From a virus: a stretch of 22,764 bases of DNA. This document shows, piece after piece, positions 14,634-22,764 of this stretch. The translations under genes and the position numbers were made by a program. The DNA is taken from positions 1 through 22,764 of IMG/VR virus record IMGVR_UViG_3300042881_002704. One strand, 5' to 3'. Under the pieces are notes generated by a model that saw only the letters and a list, made by a program, of their open reading frames with translations, searched no databases and was not told the origin of the DNA. Position 1 is the stretch's first letter, and each line of letters begins with the position of its first letter.

Positions 14634-14686
14634 CGCCCGACTTGGGCGCGTAGTAACCACGGCCGCTTTCGGGTGGCCTTTTTTTT
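14634..14686 (+). terminator. Terminator ahead of the tail tube gene
   Basis: GGCCGC (14661-14666) pairs with GGTGGCC's last six bases (14673-14678), with one G-U pair and loop TTTCGG, followed by eight T (14679-14686). A second hairpin lies upstream: CGCCC (14634-14638) with GGGCG (14644-14648). The 66-bp gap 14633-14698 thus holds a paired-hairpin element like that after the capsid gene. A ribosome site for the tube gene (GGAG then AGG) starts immediately after the T run. Confidence 0.7.
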
Positions 14687-14698
14687 GGAGATAGGAAA

Positions 14699-15124
14699 AT
14701 GCCCGGATACATCAGTTCAGGCGTCGTGTTCTCCGCCGGTGACGGCGCGACCCCGACGGAAGTGTTCGCGACGGTCGCGCAGGTGCAGGAGGTCAAGTGG
14801 TCCGGTTACAGCCGGTCCGTGGTCGACTCTCGCGTGCTGGGCGATCTGTACCCGCAGCGCATGCTTGGCCCGCACGAGACGCAGAACGTGGAGATGAAGC
14901 TCCTGTTCGACCCGGCCGACACCGCGCACGAGGCGATCCGGACGCGATTGATCGCCGGCTCGCAGCACAACTACCGGATCACGCTTCCCGACCCGGGCGC
15001 GTACCAAGTGCAGGTCCGCGGCTTCTTCACGAAGTTCGAGGTCGACGCGCTGACGGCTGAGGGTGGCGAGATCGTCGTGAACGCGACGCTCGAGCTGACC
15101 GCGCTGCCGGTGGTGACCCCGTAA
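14699..15124 (+). CDS. Major tail tube protein
   Basis: A 141-residue protein after a strong ribosome site (GGAGATAGGA). The order (completion protein, this, G/T chaperones, tape measure) and size identify it as the tube protein. The sequence opens MPGYISSGVVFSAGDGATPT, followed by LLFDPADTAHEAIRTRLIAG and a set of beta-strands YRITLPDPGAYQVQVRGFFT, the tail-tube pattern in which the last part forms the outward-facing strand pair. Hexameric rings of this protein stack around the tape measure to build the flexible tail. Its separate terminator and ribosome site agree with a need for many copies. Confidence 0.85.
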   Translation: MPGYISSGVVFSAGDGATPTEVFATVAQVQEVKWSGYSRSVVDSRVLGDLYPQRMLGPHETQNVEMKLLFDPADTAHEAIRTRLIAGSQHNYRITLPDPGAYQVQVRGFFTKFEVDALTAEGGEIVVNATLELTALPVVTP

Positions 15125-15474
15125 TGGCGGCAGTCGATCGGGATCTGCTGCGGGCGCAGGTCAGCGCGACGCTAGCGAAGGCGACGGTCCGTCCGTTGGT
15201 CGTCGCTGGCGTCGAGCTGTTCGTTCGCGGCCTGACTGGCGCCGAGCGGGTGCAGCTCATGAAGTGGTCGGCCGAGGCGCAGGGCGGCGGCGAGCCGCTC
15301 AGTGACTACAAGGTTGCGTTCCTCGGACTCTGCGACGCCGACGGCGTGCGGCTGTTCGATGACGAAGCCTCGCTGGCGGTGCTCGATGGCGGTGCGGTCT
15401 CGGAGATCGCGCGAGCCGTGATCGAGGCGTCCGGCCTGACGGGCGCAGCTGCGGAGATCGCAACGGGAAATTGA
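15124..15474 (+). CDS. Tail assembly chaperone, gpG-like
   Basis: A 116-residue protein whose ATG overlaps the tube stop (TAATG). A strand-rich start (VRPLVVAGVELFVRGLTGAE) is followed by helices (RVQLMKWSAEAQGG, LAVLDGGAVSEIARAVIEAS), typical of tail assembly chaperones. The last sense codons GGA AAT and the TGA stop sit on a G-GGA-AAT slippery heptamer (15465-15471), so a fraction of ribosomes should move to the -1 frame and produce a G-T fusion of 225 residues. The chaperones coat the tape measure and recruit tube subunits; the fusion partner is the next feature. Confidence 0.85.
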   Translation: MAAVDRDLLRAQVSATLAKATVRPLVVAGVELFVRGLTGAERVQLMKWSAEAQGGGEPLSDYKVAFLGLCDADGVRLFDDEASLAVLDGGAVSEIARAVIEASGLTGAAAEIATGN

Positions 15475-15513
15475 CCGGCGAGTCGGAGCTGCTGCTCTGG
15501 TTCCGGCTCGCCG
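15465..15513 (+). promoter_or_regulatory. Programmed -1 ribosomal frameshift site with hairpin
   Basis: The heptamer GGGAAAT (15465-15471) stands in the right phase, read G-GGA-AAT in the gpG frame and GGG-AAA in the -1 frame, just before the gpG stop TGA (15472-15474). Four bases downstream a 16-bp hairpin begins: 15476-15491 pairs base for base with 15498-15513 (four G-U pairs, no mismatch), loop CTGCTC. Lambda uses GGGAAAG at the same junction. All three parts (site, stop, structure) are visible in the sequence; the efficiency is unknown. Confidence 0.9.
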
Positions 15514-15800
15514 CGCAGCTCGGGGCGACGGTGGGTGAGCTTCAGGAGCGGATGAGCTCTTTAGAGTTTACCTACTGGCAGGCGTTCTACGGATTGGAGC
15601 CGTTCGGCTTCGATACGGAGAACTGGCGGATGGGTATGACCTGCTCGACCGTGGCGAACGCTGCGGGCCCAAAGCGCGGCGGCAAGGCGTGGCGGGTCGA
15701 GGACTTCGTCCCGGCGCGCAAGGCGGAGCCAGCAGCATCTCAATCCATTGATGACGTCCGGCGAGTGGTCGCTGCGATGGTGGGAAAACCTCATGGCTGA
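15471..15800 (+). CDS. Tail assembly chaperone T extension (DUF4035-like), made by -1 frameshift
   Basis: A 109-codon frame that becomes the C-terminal half of the gpGT fusion. It has no ATG or GTG near its beginning; the only start-like codon is TTG at 15471, which is the base after the slip, so frameshifting from gpG is the natural way to express it. The core FTYWQAFYGLEPFGFDTENW, then RMGMTCSTVANA, is the pattern of the DUF4035/lambda T type (short helical protein with a L-x-P-x-G turn). The T part links the chaperone-coated tape measure to tube protein. Its last 8 bases overlap the tape-measure ATG. Confidence 0.85.
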   Translation: MTGESELLLWFRLAAQLGATVGELQERMSSLEFTYWQAFYGLEPFGFDTENWRMGMTCSTVANAAGPKRGGKAWRVEDFVPARKAEPAASQSIDDVRRVVAAMVGKPHG

Positions 15801-17583
15801 TATCGGCACACTGGTCGTCAGGATGGCGGCGGACTCGGCGCAGATGCGGTCCGAGCTCGACCGCGTCAAGGGCGAACTGAAGAAAACCGACAGCGGTGTC
15901 TCGGCGCTGTCCGGCGCCTTCAAGAACTTGGGCGGCATCGTCGCCACGTTCTCGCTGGCTGCGGTTGTCACTCAGGCGATGCAGGCCGCGGGCGCGCTGA
16001 ACGACACGGCGGCAAAGACCGGCCTCTCCATCGACGCGCTGCAGCGCCTGCAGTTCGCGGCGACCCTGTCGGGCGGCTCCCTCGAGGGGGTTTCCGGCGC
16101 GGTGGCGCGCATGCAGAAGGCGCTCGTCGGCGCGGAGGAGGGCGGCAAGGAGGCGGTGGCGGCGCTCGATCGGCTTGGCCTGTCCGCAAAGCAGATCCTG
16201 ACGCTTTCGCCGGACAAGCAGTTCGAGGCGATCGCGCAGAAGATCGCGTCGATTCAAGACCCGGCTGAGCGCACGACGGCCGCGATGAATCTGTTCGGCC
16301 GTTCCGGCGCCGAGCTCATCCCGACGCTGCTCGCGATCGGGACCAACGGCGAAGCGATGGCCGCGCAGCTCTCCGCCATTGGCGGGCCGGTTTCGGACAA
16401 GGCGATCGCCAACGTCGACACGCTGGGCGATCAGCTCGACGTGCTCAAGACGGGCGCGAAGAACACCGCCATCGAGCTCACGGCTCTGGCGTCCGCCATC
16501 CTCGTCCCGCTCCTGCGCGAGACGAATGAGTGGATCAAGTCGCTGCGCATCCTGACCGGCGGCGGCGGCGAGCTCGAGCAGCTGCAGCGCCGGCTCGAGA
16601 TCCTGCAGGAGGCGCGCAACTCCATCCCGATTTTCTTCAACTTCGGCTATGTCGAAGGCCAGGGCGTGGTGCTCGGCCGTCGCGGCCTCGAGCAGGCGAT
16701 GCGCTCGGTGCGTGCAGACATCGACGCCATGAAGGCGAGCGCGGCGGGCGCGGTCGGCGGCATCATCGACGTGCCGATGGACATCCCGCAGCCGCAGGTG
16801 CCGAACCTCGGCGGCGGCGGCGGCAAGCCTGGCGAGCGTGCGCTGACCCCGGCTGAGATCCGCGAGCGCGACGCGGCCAAGCGCGACGCCGACTTCAAGC
16901 GCGAGTACGACCTGACCGCGCTGCACCTCTCAAGCCTTCAGATGCTGTCGTTCGACCATGCCTCGGTGCTGGCGAACATCGACTCCACCAGCGCAGCGCA
17001 GCGCATCCAGTCCGCCACGGACTTCGAGTATTTCCGCGCGAACATCGCTCAGGCTTTCGGCCTGCAGCAGCTCGACTTCGAGACCATCAAGAACCAGTCA
17101 ATCATCGACCTCGCTGGCGGCCTGTTTACCGCTCTGGCTGGCGAGAACACGAAGCTGTTCAAGGTGCAGCAGGCCTTCGCGGTCGCGAACGCGGTGGTCA
17201 ACACCGCCGAGGGCGTCACGAAGGCGCTGCGCTCGCTGCCGTTCCCCGCCAACCTTGGCGCCGCCGCGAAGGTCGCGCTCGCGGGCGCGATCCAGATCGC
17301 CAAGATCAAGTCGACGGCGCCCGGCGGGTCCGGCAGCGCGACGACTTCGGGTCTCTCTGGCGGCTCCACCGGCTCGACCCCTTCGCTCCCGCAGACCGCC
17401 GGCAACGCCCAGCAGGCGGAGCAGGCCCCGCGCATCGCGCAGGTCGTGATCCAGGGCAGCGTGTTCTCCTCGCGAGAAACCGCCGACTGGCTGGTCGACC
17501 AGCTCAAGGACGCGATCAACAACCGCGACGTCGTGTTCATCAACGGGAACAGCCGACAGGCTGGTCTCATCACGGGAGCCTGA
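15793..17583 (+). CDS. Tape measure protein
   Basis: A 596-residue protein starting at ATG 15793 (MADIGTLVVRMAADSAQMRS), with GGGA at 15782-15785. Frames from 15748 would lengthen it into gpT and are less likely. It is long-helical: a coiled N-terminus (QMRSELDRVKGELKKTDSG), a hydrophobic segment (GGIVATFSLAAVVTQAMQAA), TAAMNLFGRSGAELIPTLLA and EWIKSL, a second hydrophobic stretch (FPANLGAAAKVALAGAIQIA), a Gly/Ser/Thr linker from about residue 510, and a conserved C-terminal domain (VIQGSVFSSRETADWLVDQL). It sets tail length and is ejected with the DNA. At about 0.15 nm per residue it predicts a tail near 90 nm, short for this class. No peptidoglycan hydrolase motif was seen. Confidence 0.92.
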   Translation: MADIGTLVVRMAADSAQMRSELDRVKGELKKTDSGVSALSGAFKNLGGIVATFSLAAVVTQAMQAAGALNDTAAKTGLSIDALQRLQFAATLSGGSLEGVSGAVARMQKALVGAEEGGKEAVAALDRLGLSAKQILTLSPDKQFEAIAQKIASIQDPAERTTAAMNLFGRSGAELIPTLLAIGTNGEAMAAQLSAIGGPVSDKAIANVDTLGDQLDVLKTGAKNTAIELTALASAILVPLLRETNEWIKSLRILTGGGGELEQLQRRLEILQEARNSIPIFFNFGYVEGQGVVLGRRGLEQAMRSVRADIDAMKASAAGAVGGIIDVPMDIPQPQVPNLGGGGGKPGERALTPAEIRERDAAKRDADFKREYDLTALHLSSLQMLSFDHASVLANIDSTSAAQRIQSATDFEYFRANIAQAFGLQQLDFETIKNQSIIDLAGGLFTALAGENTKLFKVQQAFAVANAVVNTAEGVTKALRSLPFPANLGAAAKVALAGAIQIAKIKSTAPGGSGSATTSGLSGGSTGSTPSLPQTAGNAQQAEQAPRIAQVVIQGSVFSSRETADWLVDQLKDAINNRDVVFINGNSRQAGLITGA

Positions 17584-17584
17584 C

Positions 17585-18007
17585 GTGCCCGCAGTCACTT
17601 TCACCGCGAAGCGCAGCCTCATCGCCGGGCATACGGGCGGGTCGCAGTATTCGCTCGACCTTCGCCTGGTCGAGGGCGGTCTCGGTGTCGGCCGCAAGGT
17701 CGGCTCGGAGACGCAGCGCTCGCTCAGCGACAAGACCGAGACGCTGTACTACTTCGGGAAGAGCACCTGGGCGGCGATCGCGCTCGTCTTGAACTCGACC
17801 GAGCGGGCCGCGCTCGCGGAGTTTTTGCATTCGGTCGAGGCCGGCGAGTCGTTCACCTTCTCGCCCTACGGCTCGGTCGCCGCGATGGGCACGACGCACA
17901 CCGCGCGGCGCGTGACCGCCAACTACAACTTCGAGCGCTTGGACGGCACCGGCGCCACGCCGAATGACGACGCGATGCGCGTTTCCTTCGACCTCGAGGA
18001 AGTCTGA
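17585..18007 (+). CDS. Minor/distal tail protein
   Basis: A 140-residue protein with a GTG start one base after the tape-measure stop, and a TGATG overlap with the tail-tip gene. The sequence (MPAVTFTAKRSLIAGHTGGS, TLYYFGKSTWAAIALVLNST, AEFLHSVEAGESFTFSPYGS) is a beta-sandwich type with one helix, as in lambda gpM-like and distal-tail (Dit-like) proteins. By position it joins the tube end and tape-measure to the tail tip. I cannot name the exact family; the role is inferred from order. Confidence 0.6.
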   Translation: MPAVTFTAKRSLIAGHTGGSQYSLDLRLVEGGLGVGRKVGSETQRSLSDKTETLYYFGKSTWAAIALVLNSTERAALAEFLHSVEAGESFTFSPYGSVAAMGTTHTARRVTANYNFERLDGTGATPNDDAMRVSFDLEEV

Positions 18008-21000
18008 TGCGCACCGACCCGGCCGCCTTCAACGAGCTGAACAGCGCCTCCGTCAAGGAGCCGCGCTTCGTCGTTCGCATCAACTTCTCGACGCCCATCC
18101 TCATCACGAGCCACACCGGCATCACGGGCCTCTCGGGTGCCGTCATCGACGGCGCGCTCATCGAGCCGAGCATCGTCTCGCAGCGCCTCAACCCCATCGA
18201 GGGGCGCTCGGAGATCGGCTCGGCCTCGTTCCAAGTGGCCGACCTTGCGGGCACGCTCACCGACGAGATCCGCTCGCGGCTCGGCGCCGCGGCTGGCCTG
18301 CGCGACAAGCAGGTCGAGTTCTTCTTGGGCTACGCTGGGCTCGCCTTCGCCGACTTCGTGCGGGTGGGCACCCAGCGCGTCACCGAGGCGACCTTCGACA
18401 AGGGCCGCTATCAGATCTCCTGCGCGGACATCCAGCGGTCGGCGAAGAAGGACATCTTCGAACTCGCCGAGACGACTCTCGCTCAGTCCCTTTCGGCAAC
18501 CGACACCACGGTGACGGTCAGCTCGACGGCCGGCTTCACGACCGTGTTCCACGGGCCGACCTACACCGACGCGGCCAACGCGACCGTCGGCTACATCAAG
18601 ATCCGGGACGAGGTCATTCGTTACACGGGTAAGACCGCGACCACCTTCACCGGCTGCGCCCGTGGCGTCCTCGGCACCATCGCGGCCGCCTACGACGTGG
18701 ACGCTGCCACCCCGGCAACGCGCCGCGAGAAGGTCACCGAGCACGTCTACCTCGAGCTGCCCGCGGTCAAGATCGCCTACGCCATCCTCACGGGGCAGCT
18801 CTACGGCGACGCCGCAACGCTCCCGGCGGCCTGGCATCTCGGAATCGACACTTCGCTCATCCGCACCTCGGACTTCATCGGCATTGGTGGAGATCTTTGG
18901 GACGGCGCCAACGCGGGCGTAGTGATCCGGTTCGAGGGGCTCAAGAAAACCGACGGCAAGAAGTTCCTCGAGGAGGAGATTTGTCGCCTGCTGGGCGTCT
19001 TCATGCCGGTGTACGCCGACGGCGCGTGGGGCCTGCGCCGAGCCGCGCGCGTGCTCTCGGATGCGGCCACGGTCGCCACCCTCGACGAGTCAAACAGCGT
19101 GCAGGTCGGCGAGCTTGTGCATGACATGGGCGAGCTGCACAACGTGTTCCGGATCTTCTGGAACTGGAACGGCTCGGACTACACGCGGACGACGGCACTC
19201 ATCGACGCGAGCTCGGCCGCGGCGCACGGCAAGGCCGACCCGCTCGATCTCAAGTTCAAGGGCTTGTACGGCGGCCGGGCCACCGACTCTCTCCTCTACC
19301 AGCTCGTCGACGCCCTGCGCGATCGCTACGCTGCGCCTCCCGAGCGGCTCTCCGTCACGGCGCTGCACTCGCTCAACCGCCTTGAGGTGGGCGACGTGGT
19401 GCGCGTGCGCTACGCCTCCGTCCGAGACTACTCCGGGGCGGGCGCGTCCATCGACCGCGCGTTCGAGATCCAAAACCTATCGGTGAACCACAAGACCGGC
19501 GCGGTGCAGCTCGAGCTCTTCGGCTCAACGTCCCCGGCTTCGGCGCTATCGCCGACTACGGCCACGACGGCGCTCCCGAACGCGTTCTACACGGCCACAG
19601 GAACCGCGCTCTCGACGGTGGCGACCATCACCGCGGGCGTGATGGCGACTGGCTCATACACGCTCACAGGCGGCTCCAGCCTCACCGCCTCGGGGTCCAT
19701 CTGGTACCACGACGGCGACCTGACGATCCCGCAAGGTTGCACCCTAAACATCAGTGGCAACGTGCAGCTGCGGGTGCGCGGCTACCTGACCGTCAACGGC
19801 ACCATCAACGGCGTCGGCGGCGGTCTGGCGGGCGTGGCTGACAACACCAGCCCGACCGTGCAGCTCACCGGTAATCCGGGCTGGGTCGGCAACTCCCGCG
19901 GCCTTGACGGCATCGACGCCGCGCAGGACTACGCCAACGGCAACGCGCGGCTCCAGACCGTCCCGGTGCCCGTGACGCAGGGCAAGCACGCCGCGTTCCC
20001 CTACCTCGAGGTCACGGTCTCGGGCAACACCCTGACCGGCCTGCCGACCGACCTGCGCGGCACCGGCGGCGGCCCGGGCGGCAAGATCACGAGCGGCGGC
20101 AAGGCGACCTTCCGCGCGGCGGGCGGGGCGGGGGCGGCGGGTGGTGCGGGTCTCTGCACGATCTCGCGCGGCTTCTCGACCGGCGCATCGGCGACTATCA
20201 ACCTGTCCGGCAACAGCCCGACCGCTCCGTCTCTGCACGGCCCGCTTCCGAACATGTACTACCCGGGCGCGGGTGGCGCTGGCGGCCCGGGCTCGATCCT
20301 CCTCCTCCTCGACGGCTCGGCCGTCTCTGCGCCGGATCTGACGAACCGCTTCATCGCCAACACCGGCACGGTGCCGCAGCCGGCGCAGGTGTCGGGCAAG
20401 CTCACCTTCCTCGACAACGAGCCGTACCACCGCTACTCGGACAACGAGGACCCGTGGGCGGGCTACCCCGACCCGGCGGTCATCTCCGGCCGCTCGCTGG
20501 CCGGCTCCGCCCAGCGCATCCAGTTCATCCCGGCTCCGGAGACGGCAACGGCCGACCCGGTGGCCGCCCCGCCTGCGCCCTCGGGTCTGACGGCGGTCGC
20601 CCAGGACGGCTTCGTGCTCGTCTCTTGGACGCTGCCGGCTGATCCGGCTTCTTATGATGCAGTCGAGCTCCACGCGTCCACGTCGAACGATCGCGCGGCG
20701 GCGGTTAAGGTTTTCGACGGCCGCGCGTCCGACTTTAAGCACGTCACCGGCGACACTTCCGCGCGGTTCTATTGGGCCAGGTCGCGCCGCGATCGCGCGG
20801 TCTCCGCCTGGCATCCGGCCACGACCACGAGCGCGGCGACTGCGGCGGCGCGTCCGCCGACGGTTACCGGGTACCTCACGAACGAGGCCGTGGCCGTCGC
20901 GGCTGACTCGGCCGGCACGGTCGCATCCTTCGCTGGCGCGTCGGGCTCCTTCAAGGTGCTCGCGGGCGCGGTCGACGTCACGACGTCCGCGACGTTCGCG

Positions 21001-22764
21001 CTTGTCGGCTCGAGCGCGCTAACCGCCACGATCAACGCGACGACGGGCGCCTACTCGGCGACCGCGATGACGGCGGACGTCGGCACGGCGACCTTCCGCG
21101 CGAGCTACGGCGGCGTGACCGTCGACAAGGTTTTCAGCGTCACCAAGGCGCGCGCGGGCGTGAACGGGACGAACGGGACCAATGGCTCGAACGGCAGCAA
21201 CGGGACGAATGCCGTCTCGATCTCGCTCTCGCGCGACGCGGTGCAGCTGTTCGCCTTCGCCGAGGGGACGGTCCCGTCGTTCGCGGATGCGGTCGGCACG
21301 GTCACGGTGCGCGACGGCGCGACCGACGTCACGGCGTCGGCGACGCTCTCGGCGGTGCAGGGCTCGGGCGTCACCGGCACGGTGAACACCGCGACGAACA
21401 CGCCGGTCAACGGTCAGCCGAAGGGCTACTACCGCGTTACCGCGATGACCGGCGACACCGGCACGCTTACGCTCTCGGCGGTCTACGGCGGCGTGACCTA
21501 TCAGGCGACCTTCACGCTCGCCAAGAATAAAACCGGCTACGAGATCGTCGCCGCGCTCCCGAGCACGAATCTCTTCGAGGGTCGGATGGTGTACCTCACC
21601 ACCGACGATAAGCTCTATCGCTACACCGGCGCGGCGTGGACGGCCGCGATTCCGGCGGCGGACATTTCCGGGCAGATCGCGGATTCGCAGATCGCGGGCG
21701 TCGGCGCGGGCAAGGTTACGGGGCAGCTGACAAACGCGCAGATCGCCGACCTCGCGGCGGCGAAAGTGACCGGCCAGCTCGCCGACTCGCAGCTCGCCGC
21801 TATCGGTGCGGCCAAGGTGACGGGCCAGCTGACCAACGCGCAGATCGCGGACATCGCGGCGGCGAAAGTCACCGGTCAAGTCGTCGCGTCGCAGTTAAAT
21901 GTCGGCGTCGGCGGCGGGAACCTTCTCGGAAACGCGGCCTTCCGCGCGCACGCGGGCGGCTATCCGACTGGGTGGGGCCTCTACAACAACGGCGCTCATT
22001 CGGTTACGCCGAGCATCAATTCCGGCGGATTGTTCGGCGGCAACTTCTTCCGCCTGACCGCGAACGAAACCGTCGGAAACACTTTCGGCCTCTACACCGC
22101 GAACAATATCGGCGTACCGGGCGCCGGCGTGGATTCGTGGACGCCCGGTCTAACCTATGTGATTTCGTTTTGGGCGCGCTCAAACGGCGCCGGCGCGGTT
22201 GGCCGGACCATGCAGGGCCTCTACTCGAACATGGGGTGGAACGCGGCAACTCAGCTCGCCAACCCCCCGCTCGTCAATGGCGTCTGGCAGCGTTACTCCT
22301 GGCGCGTGCAGCCGGCCGATAACAGCCACACGCCGGTCGGCTCGCTTTACATCTCTTTTGAGCCGGGCGGGAACGGTTTCAATTTTCTATTCTCGGGCGC
22401 GTCCATCGACATCTGCGCGCCGCAGGTTGAGCAGGGCGAGCTCCCGTCCGGCTTCTCGCCGCGACCGGAGGAGATCCTGCCGGGGACCATCACCGGGACC
22501 GAGATCTCGGACAACGCGATCACCACGCCGAAGCTGGTGGCGGGCGCGGTCGTGGCGGGGAAGATTGCTGCGGATGCGGTCGGCGCGAACGAGATCGTGG
22601 CCAACGCGGTCACGGCCGCGAAGATTGCGGCCGGTGCAGTCGTCGCCGGGAAGATCGCGGCTGATGCGGTGACGGCGAACGAGATCGCCGCGAACGCGAT
22701 CACGGCCGCGAAGATTGCCGCCGGCGCAGTCGTCGCCGGGAAGATCGCGGCCGATGCGGTTACC
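18007..22764 (+). CDS. Giant tail-tip hub plus central fibre protein (J-like), 3' end outside window
   Basis: The frame from ATG 18007 is open without a stop through base 22764: 1,586 codons, with the end beyond the window. Residues 1 to about 506 look like a tail hub/tip domain with a small inserted module (LSATDTTVTVSSTAGF, then GYIKIRDEVIRYTGKT and FTGCARGVLGT, about 159-225). About 537-830 is a strand and Gly-rich region (GTGGGPGGKITSGGK). About 855-945 is a fibronectin type III-like domain (PAPSGLTAVAQDGFVLVSW). Ig-like strands and a collagen-like NGTNGTNGSNG stretch (about 1051-1066) follow. About 1179-1213 is GRMVYLTTDDKLYRYTGAAW, then 17-residue repeats, a jelly-roll-like domain (1298-1482) and 30-residue repeats. 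This is the usual order in J-type host-specificity proteins. The likely role is host recognition and tail-tip structure. Confidence 0.85.
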   Translation, partial: MRTDPAAFNELNSASVKEPRFVVRINFSTPILITSHTGITGLSGAVIDGALIEPSIVSQRLNPIEGRSEIGSASFQVADLAGTLTDEIRSRLGAAAGLRDKQVEFFLGYAGLAFADFVRVGTQRVTEATFDKGRYQISCADIQRSAKKDIFELAETTLAQSLSATDTTVTVSSTAGFTTVFHGPTYTDAANATVGYIKIRDEVIRYTGKTATTFTGCARGVLGTIAAAYDVDAATPATRREKVTEHVYLELPAVKIAYAILTGQLYGDAATLPAAWHLGIDTSLIRTSDFIGIGGDLWDGANAGVVIRFEGLKKTDGKKFLEEEICRLLGVFMPVYADGAWGLRRAARVLSDAATVATLDESNSVQVGELVHDMGELHNVFRIFWNWNGSDYTRTTALIDASSAAAHGKADPLDLKFKGLYGGRATDSLLYQLVDALRDRYAAPPERLSVTALHSLNRLEVGDVVRVRYASVRDYSGAGASIDRAFEIQNLSVNHKTGAVQLELFGSTSPASALSPTTATTALPNAFYTATGTALSTVATITAGVMATGSYTLTGGSSLTASGSIWYHDGDLTIPQGCTLNISGNVQLRVRGYLTVNGTINGVGGGLAGVADNTSPTVQLTGNPGWVGNSRGLDGIDAAQDYANGNARLQTVPVPVTQGKHAAFPYLEVTVSGNTLTGLPTDLRGTGGGPGGKITSGGKATFRAAGGAGAAGGAGLCTISRGFSTGASATINLSGNSPTAPSLHGPLPNMYYPGAGGAGGPGSILLLLDGSAVSAPDLTNRFIANTGTVPQPAQVSGKLTFLDNEPYHRYSDNEDPWAGYPDPAVISGRSLAGSAQRIQFIPAPETATADPVAAPPAPSGLTAVAQDGFVLVSWTLPADPASYDAVELHASTSNDRAAAVKVFDGRASDFKHVTGDTSARFYWARSRRDRAVSAWHPATTTSAATAAARPPTVTGYLTNEAVAVAADSAGTVASFAGASGSFKVLAGAVDVTTSATFALVGSSALTATINATTGAYSATAMTADVGTATFRASYGGVTVDKVFSVTKARAGVNGTNGTNGSNGSNGTNAVSISLSRDAVQLFAFAEGTVPSFADAVGTVTVRDGATDVTASATLSAVQGSGVTGTVNTATNTPVNGQPKGYYRVTAMTGDTGTLTLSAVYGGVTYQATFTLAKNKTGYEIVAALPSTNLFEGRMVYLTTDDKLYRYTGAAWTAAIPAADISGQIADSQIAGVGAGKVTGQLTNAQIADLAAAKVTGQLADSQLAAIGAAKVTGQLTNAQIADIAAAKVTGQVVASQLNVGVGGGNLLGNAAFRAHAGGYPTGWGLYNNGAHSVTPSINSGGLFGGNFFRLTANETVGNTFGLYTANNIGVPGAGVDSWTPGLTYVISFWARSNGAGAVGRTMQGLYSNMGWNAATQLANPPLVNGVWQRYSWRVQPADNSHTPVGSLYISFEPGGNGFNFLFSGASIDICAPQVEQGELPSGFSPRPEEILPGTITGTEISDNAITTPKLVAGAVVAGKIAADAVGANEIVANAVTAAKIAAGAVVAGKIAADAVTANEIAANAITAAKIAAGAVVAGKIAADAVT
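21661..21882 (+). repeat. 51-bp (17-residue) tandem repeats in the fibre gene
   Basis: Units start at 21661, 21712, 21763, 21814 and 21865 (partial). The protein pattern is KVTGQLTNAQIADLAAA, and units two and four are almost identical in protein and alternate with KVTGQLADSQLAAIGAA and the diverged first unit. Such repeats generally form a trimeric triple-beta or coiled fibre shaft between adhesin domains. They are seen in-frame and keep the reading frame when gained or lost. Confidence 0.75.
22543..22764 (+). repeat. 90-bp (30-residue) tandem repeats at the window edge
   Basis: Two full units (22543-22632, 22633-22722) and the start of a third (22723-22764) encode GAVVAGKIAADAVTANEIAA followed by NAITAAKIAA, with only a few changes. 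The units are nearly the same at the DNA level, so the copy number may vary by slippage or recombination. The array continues past the right edge; its true number is not visible. The sequence type is the repetitive fibre shaft of lambda-like J proteins. Confidence 0.8.

Follow-up and report, generated by a model that had tools for sequence, protein, structure and literature searches.

A probable lambda-type −1 ribosomal frameshift signal at the G/T junction of an uncultivated phage

Frameshifting between the tail genes G and T is well known in phages (review PMC5009743; PRFect, PMC10885494). In Escherichia coli, in combination with the IS3 pseudoknot, all but three of the 64 heptamers slip detectably, and G_GGA_AAU is not among the three (PMC4066793). 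The slipping rates of U_UUA_AAC (2%) and U_UUA_AAU (3%) in E. coli are similarly low (PMC6787027). Heptamers ending in AAC, such as G_GGA_AAC, are of low efficiency in E. coli (PMC4066793), which counts against a frameshift reading of the locus described here. A stop codon directly 3′ of the slippery heptamer occurs in Rous sarcoma virus and in BYDV (PMC4373837). We compared with these systems the G/T junction of an uncultivated phage and consider it very likely, judging from sequence comparisons, that this junction carries a programmed −1 ribosomal frameshift signal of the lambda type.

The G/T locus and its predicted fusion product

The analysed stretch of DNA (the window) corresponds to a virus record 22,764 bases long, and the elements of the G/T locus lie on its plus strand. 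The gene for the major tail (tube) protein (14699–15124) was recognized by its match to phrog_158 (E = 2.4e-6); its product also matches Phage_tail_3 weakly, with E = 0.0048, below the cutoff. Its 3′ end overlaps the start of G (15124–15474), which encodes a tail assembly chaperone of 116 aa (phrog_344, E = 2.6e-11). T, the −1 frame portion of the G-T fusion (15471–15800), matches PF06223 Phage_tail_T above the cutoff (E = 7e-14) as well as the tail protein family phrog_337 (E = 1.6e-18). The ATG of the tape measure gene (15793–17583, 596 aa; phrog_9483, E = 4e-44 with the ORF read from 15748) overlaps the stop codon of T. The order at the locus is thus major tail protein, G, T and tape measure, with head-completion, neck, tail-terminator and major tail genes 5′ of G, and the placement of the G/T cassette, with the major tail gene on one side and the tape measure gene on the other, reproduces the lambda V-G-T-H order.

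Searches with G as the query found no match among annotated phages or in the PDB, and NCBIfam held no family matching G or T. Alignment of T against genome contigs found no relative, so that no host was assigned, and a tRNA scan found no tRNA. A long ORF (18007–22764) runs off the contig, which indicates that the record is a fragment at its 3′ end; the last part of this ORF, at about 22400–22764 of the window, consists of short tandem repeats (AAKIAAGAVVAGKIAADAVTANEIAANAIT).

The window also contains a hairpin resembling an intrinsic terminator, followed by eight T (14661–14686), 5′ of the major tail protein gene at 14699 and inside a late operon. Directly 3′ of the T run is GGAG, the likely Shine–Dalgarno (SD) sequence of that gene. 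Seven relatives (L007, L016, L019, L028, L034, L035 and L046) have one or two such hairpin-plus-T-run units in the same place, with differing stems.

The G reading frame ends in GCA ACG GGA AAT TGA. An initial annotation had proposed a −1 frameshift here, and its account of the layout agrees with our reading. The heptamer G_GGA_AAT (15465–15471) is in the phase of G, with its first G at 15465 and the codons GGA AAT extending to 15471; it touches the G stop codon TGA (15472–15474), which is followed by C; and a −1 slip leads into the T frame with its PF06223 domain, open from 15471 to 15800. Translation reproduces the predicted fusion of 225 aa and the junction peptide ATGNLTGESE. The phase, the open frames, the family of both halves and the synteny are directly supported. 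In 13 ORFs of the window, comprising 4776 codon pairs, no other in-phase heptamer fits XXXYYYZ with A or T as Y, and both codons of GGGAAAT are rare, with GGA used for 11 of 448 Gly and AAT for 17 of 171 Asn. The annotation of this uncultivated phage tail chaperone pair is corrected to a predicted 225-aa fusion, in place of two unrelated genes.

Conservation of the junction and translation of the T frame

Homologues of T were drawn from viral contigs, and wider searches together with named phages yielded 81 distinct junctions. All members of the close clade possess an in-phase heptamer at the same place with the stop codon directly 3′, in the combinations GGGAAAT TGA, GGGAAAC TGA, AAAAAAC followed by TGA or TAA, and AAAAAAA TAG. 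Over the whole set, the heptamer abuts the stop, which may be TGA, TAA or TAG, in 47 of the 81 distinct junctions (counts read from the junction list), and in many others it lies 5–21 codons 5′ of the stop. The abutting layout is therefore common and conserved in the family of T homologues, whichever stop codon is used. The initial annotation had regarded the arrangement as unusually compact. That part of its interpretation is contradicted by these counts and by the abutting stops of phages phiSASD1 and Dubu, of Rous sarcoma virus and of BYDV, whereas the −1 mechanism that it proposed is borne out by the conservation. A wider survey counted 130 junctions, belonging to 36 clusters, whose in-phase heptamer has A or T as Y. 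An XXXYYYZ heptamer is absent from the overlap in some distant homologues (L042, L113, L143 and Thermobifida P1312), which counts against the frameshift reading.

GGGAAAT followed by a stop was found again in one further relative (L127). The junction of L003, whose T is 97% identical, reads GGGAAAC TGA, and the C/T difference is silent in both frames (AAC and AAT both encode Asn, CTG and TTG both Leu). GGGAAAT is thus one doubly silent step away from GGGAAAC, and the TTG that might be taken for a start codon of T is a by-product of that change.

Two other junction types were observed. The junction of L115 reads GTG GGG GAA TGA, where GGGGGAA directly 5′ of the stop is the "fivetwo" motif of SEA-PHAGES chaperones. 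A second layout in the family has the heptamer 11–12 codons 5′ of TAG (L059, L063, L114, L116, L118–L120, L130 and L132), and in many of these junctions TAG falls within conserved T-frame Arg-Leu-Ala codons (CGN CTA GCN).

The adjacent frames in the window are two parts of a known fusion protein, as would also be expected if a single gene had been split by an indel, through a sequencing error or decay of the frame. We rejected this explanation, whose probability we regard as negligible: dozens of independent contigs, and named phages too, show the same two-frame layout with differing heptamers and stops, and L002 is 100% identical to the window over 3.3 kb. In the Streptomyces phages phiSASD1 and Dubu, annotators had joined the two homologous frames.

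The stretch between the heptamer and the first in-frame ATG of the T frame (15552–15554, T codon 28) provides further evidence. Substitutions in this stretch number 311, 111 and 829 at T-frame codon positions 1, 2 and 3, a bias indicating that the stretch is translated in the T frame, and similarity between T proteins continues through it. On this pattern of substitutions, purifying selection acts on the T-frame codons 5′ of the ATG. Among its close relatives the window alone has TTG as the first T codon, and almost all relatives carry CTG, CTA or ATA there, so that no start is conserved. A T frame translated from the slip site onwards and lacking a conserved start codon is better explained by frameshifting than by re-initiation or an internal start.

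Re-initiation would yield T as a protein of its own, with translation beginning at TTG 15471 and no frameshift; this codon and the G stop share bases (A TTG A). TTG is a permitted start, and genes are often coupled by such stop-start overlaps. However, the codon is not conserved, GGGA (15465–15468) and GGAG lie 2 and 14 nt from it, both of them poor spacings for a start, and the conserved heptamer would be left without explanation. For these reasons we rejected re-initiation, which we consider highly improbable. A similarly low probability applies to production of T alone from the ATG at 15552, either replacing the fusion or alongside it. Met28 is invariant in A1, the PF06223 match begins at T-frame residue 29, and AGGAG is located 3 nt 5′ of the ATG, a possible minor internal start. 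On the other hand, the T-frame codon bias and the protein similarity reach 5′ to the slip site, AGGAG stands too close to the ATG to make it a good start, and a change of CAG to CAA in L005, L016 and L028 weakens the SD sequence. An internal start at this ATG can coexist with frameshifting.

Elements flanking the heptamer

The predicted stimulatory hairpin (15476–15513) consists of arms at 15476–15490 and 15499–15513 and a loop at 15491–15498, with the base of the stem at 15476, 4 nt 3′ of the heptamer, where the initial annotation had also placed it. The uninterrupted stem of 16 bp described there is in part reproduced: the minimum-energy fold has 15 pairs (−30.4 kcal/mol, with 1 of 200 shuffles as good), a 16th pair (G-U) is possible, and G-U accounts for 4 of the 16. 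The hairpin ranks among the best 1% (20 of 2000) of T-frame synonymous recodings. Its pairs are kept in 85.8% of cells over 16 distinct rows, compared with 30–50% when the partners are slid; some changes in these rows are two-sided, and the covariation is modest. Junction folding exceeds that of synonymous recodings at p < 0.05 in 16 of 36 clusters; two control positions, where some excess folding is likewise seen, reach 6 of 36. In L024, about 40% of the synonymous recodings fold equally well. Conserved encoded residues account for part of the hairpin, and an Rfam search near the site returned nothing close to a gathering score. Conservation of the heptamer, stop position and hairpin is directly supported, as is selection acting on T-frame codons between the slip site and the first ATG; from the predicted folds and their conservation in close relatives, the hairpin may play a stimulatory role.

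An SD-like GGAG (15453–15456), which the initial annotation did not mention, lies 8 nt 5′ of the heptamer and is a candidate 5′ stimulator. It coincides with the peak of anti-SD complementarity in the family, 11–15 nt 5′ of the heptamer, where the mean is about −5.8 kcal/mol and up to 30 of 36 clusters have an energy ≤ −4, compared to 0–11 at positions further 5′. The observed energy is −6.3 kcal/mol compared with −5.2 expected from synonymous recodings (p = 0.0025 by the Wilcoxon test, on clusters that are phylogenetically related), and the same test at a control position gave no difference. The recodings retain most of the signal, so the codon-level excess is modest; a codon-independent SD signal was considered, and the encoded residues account for most, though not all, of the complementarity. 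By analogy with dnaX, GGAG is probably a third part of the frameshift signal.

The abutting stop could itself be functional, with some slipping occurring while UGA occupies the A site and competition with release factor setting the G-T:G ratio, though we think this unlikely. If true, the ratio would respond to the level of release factor, and the weak UGA-C context would help. Of the 47 abutting junctions, 35 have C immediately 3′ of the stop, and conservation of this weak context (+4 C) is suggestive, although T-frame coding may contribute to it. When a stop is placed after the HIV slippery site, release factors lower frameshifting, which indicates that some slipping takes place with a stop in the A site (PMC4373837). 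The junctions collected here offer natural material on which competition with release factor in −1 frameshifting could be tested.

Proposed mechanism and comparison with known systems

These results lead us to propose that most ribosomes would stop at the TGA at 15472 and release the tail chaperone G. A minority would be delayed by the hairpin, and possibly also by the SD-like GGAG on the 5′ side; tRNA-Gly and tRNA-Asn would then slip back one base on G GGA AAT, and the slipped ribosomes would continue from TTG (Leu) to give the 225-aa G-T fusion. We infer both the slipping itself and its rate. By analogy with lambda, the fusion and the surplus of G would presumably act together as chaperones on the tape measure protein and bring in the major tail protein.

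The junction shares with lambda G/GT (G_GGA_AAG) the gene order, a chaperone G, a T domain in the −1 frame, a G_GGA_AAN heptamer near the end of G, and major tail and tape measure genes as neighbours. Unlike lambda, the window has T instead of G as the last base of the heptamer, which places an Asn codon in the A site, and a stop abutting the heptamer. Dubu and phiSASD1 (GGGAAAC TGA) have the same class of heptamer, an abutting UGA, a homologous T and an annotated joined G-T; they differ in having GGGAAAC where the window has GGGAAAT, and the hairpin of Dubu is weaker. Rous sarcoma virus and BYDV are alike only in the position of the stop (PMC4373837), being unrelated eukaryotic viruses with other products, and Rous sarcoma virus has a pseudoknot. 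E. coli dnaX and the IS911-type signals likewise combine an SD-like element on the 5′ side, a heptamer and a 3′ hairpin; they involve other genes and the efficient A_AAA_AAG, and the SD element of the window is a putative one. The site is an ordinary member of the lambda-type family, whose compactness is widely shared and was already annotated in phiSASD1 and Dubu.
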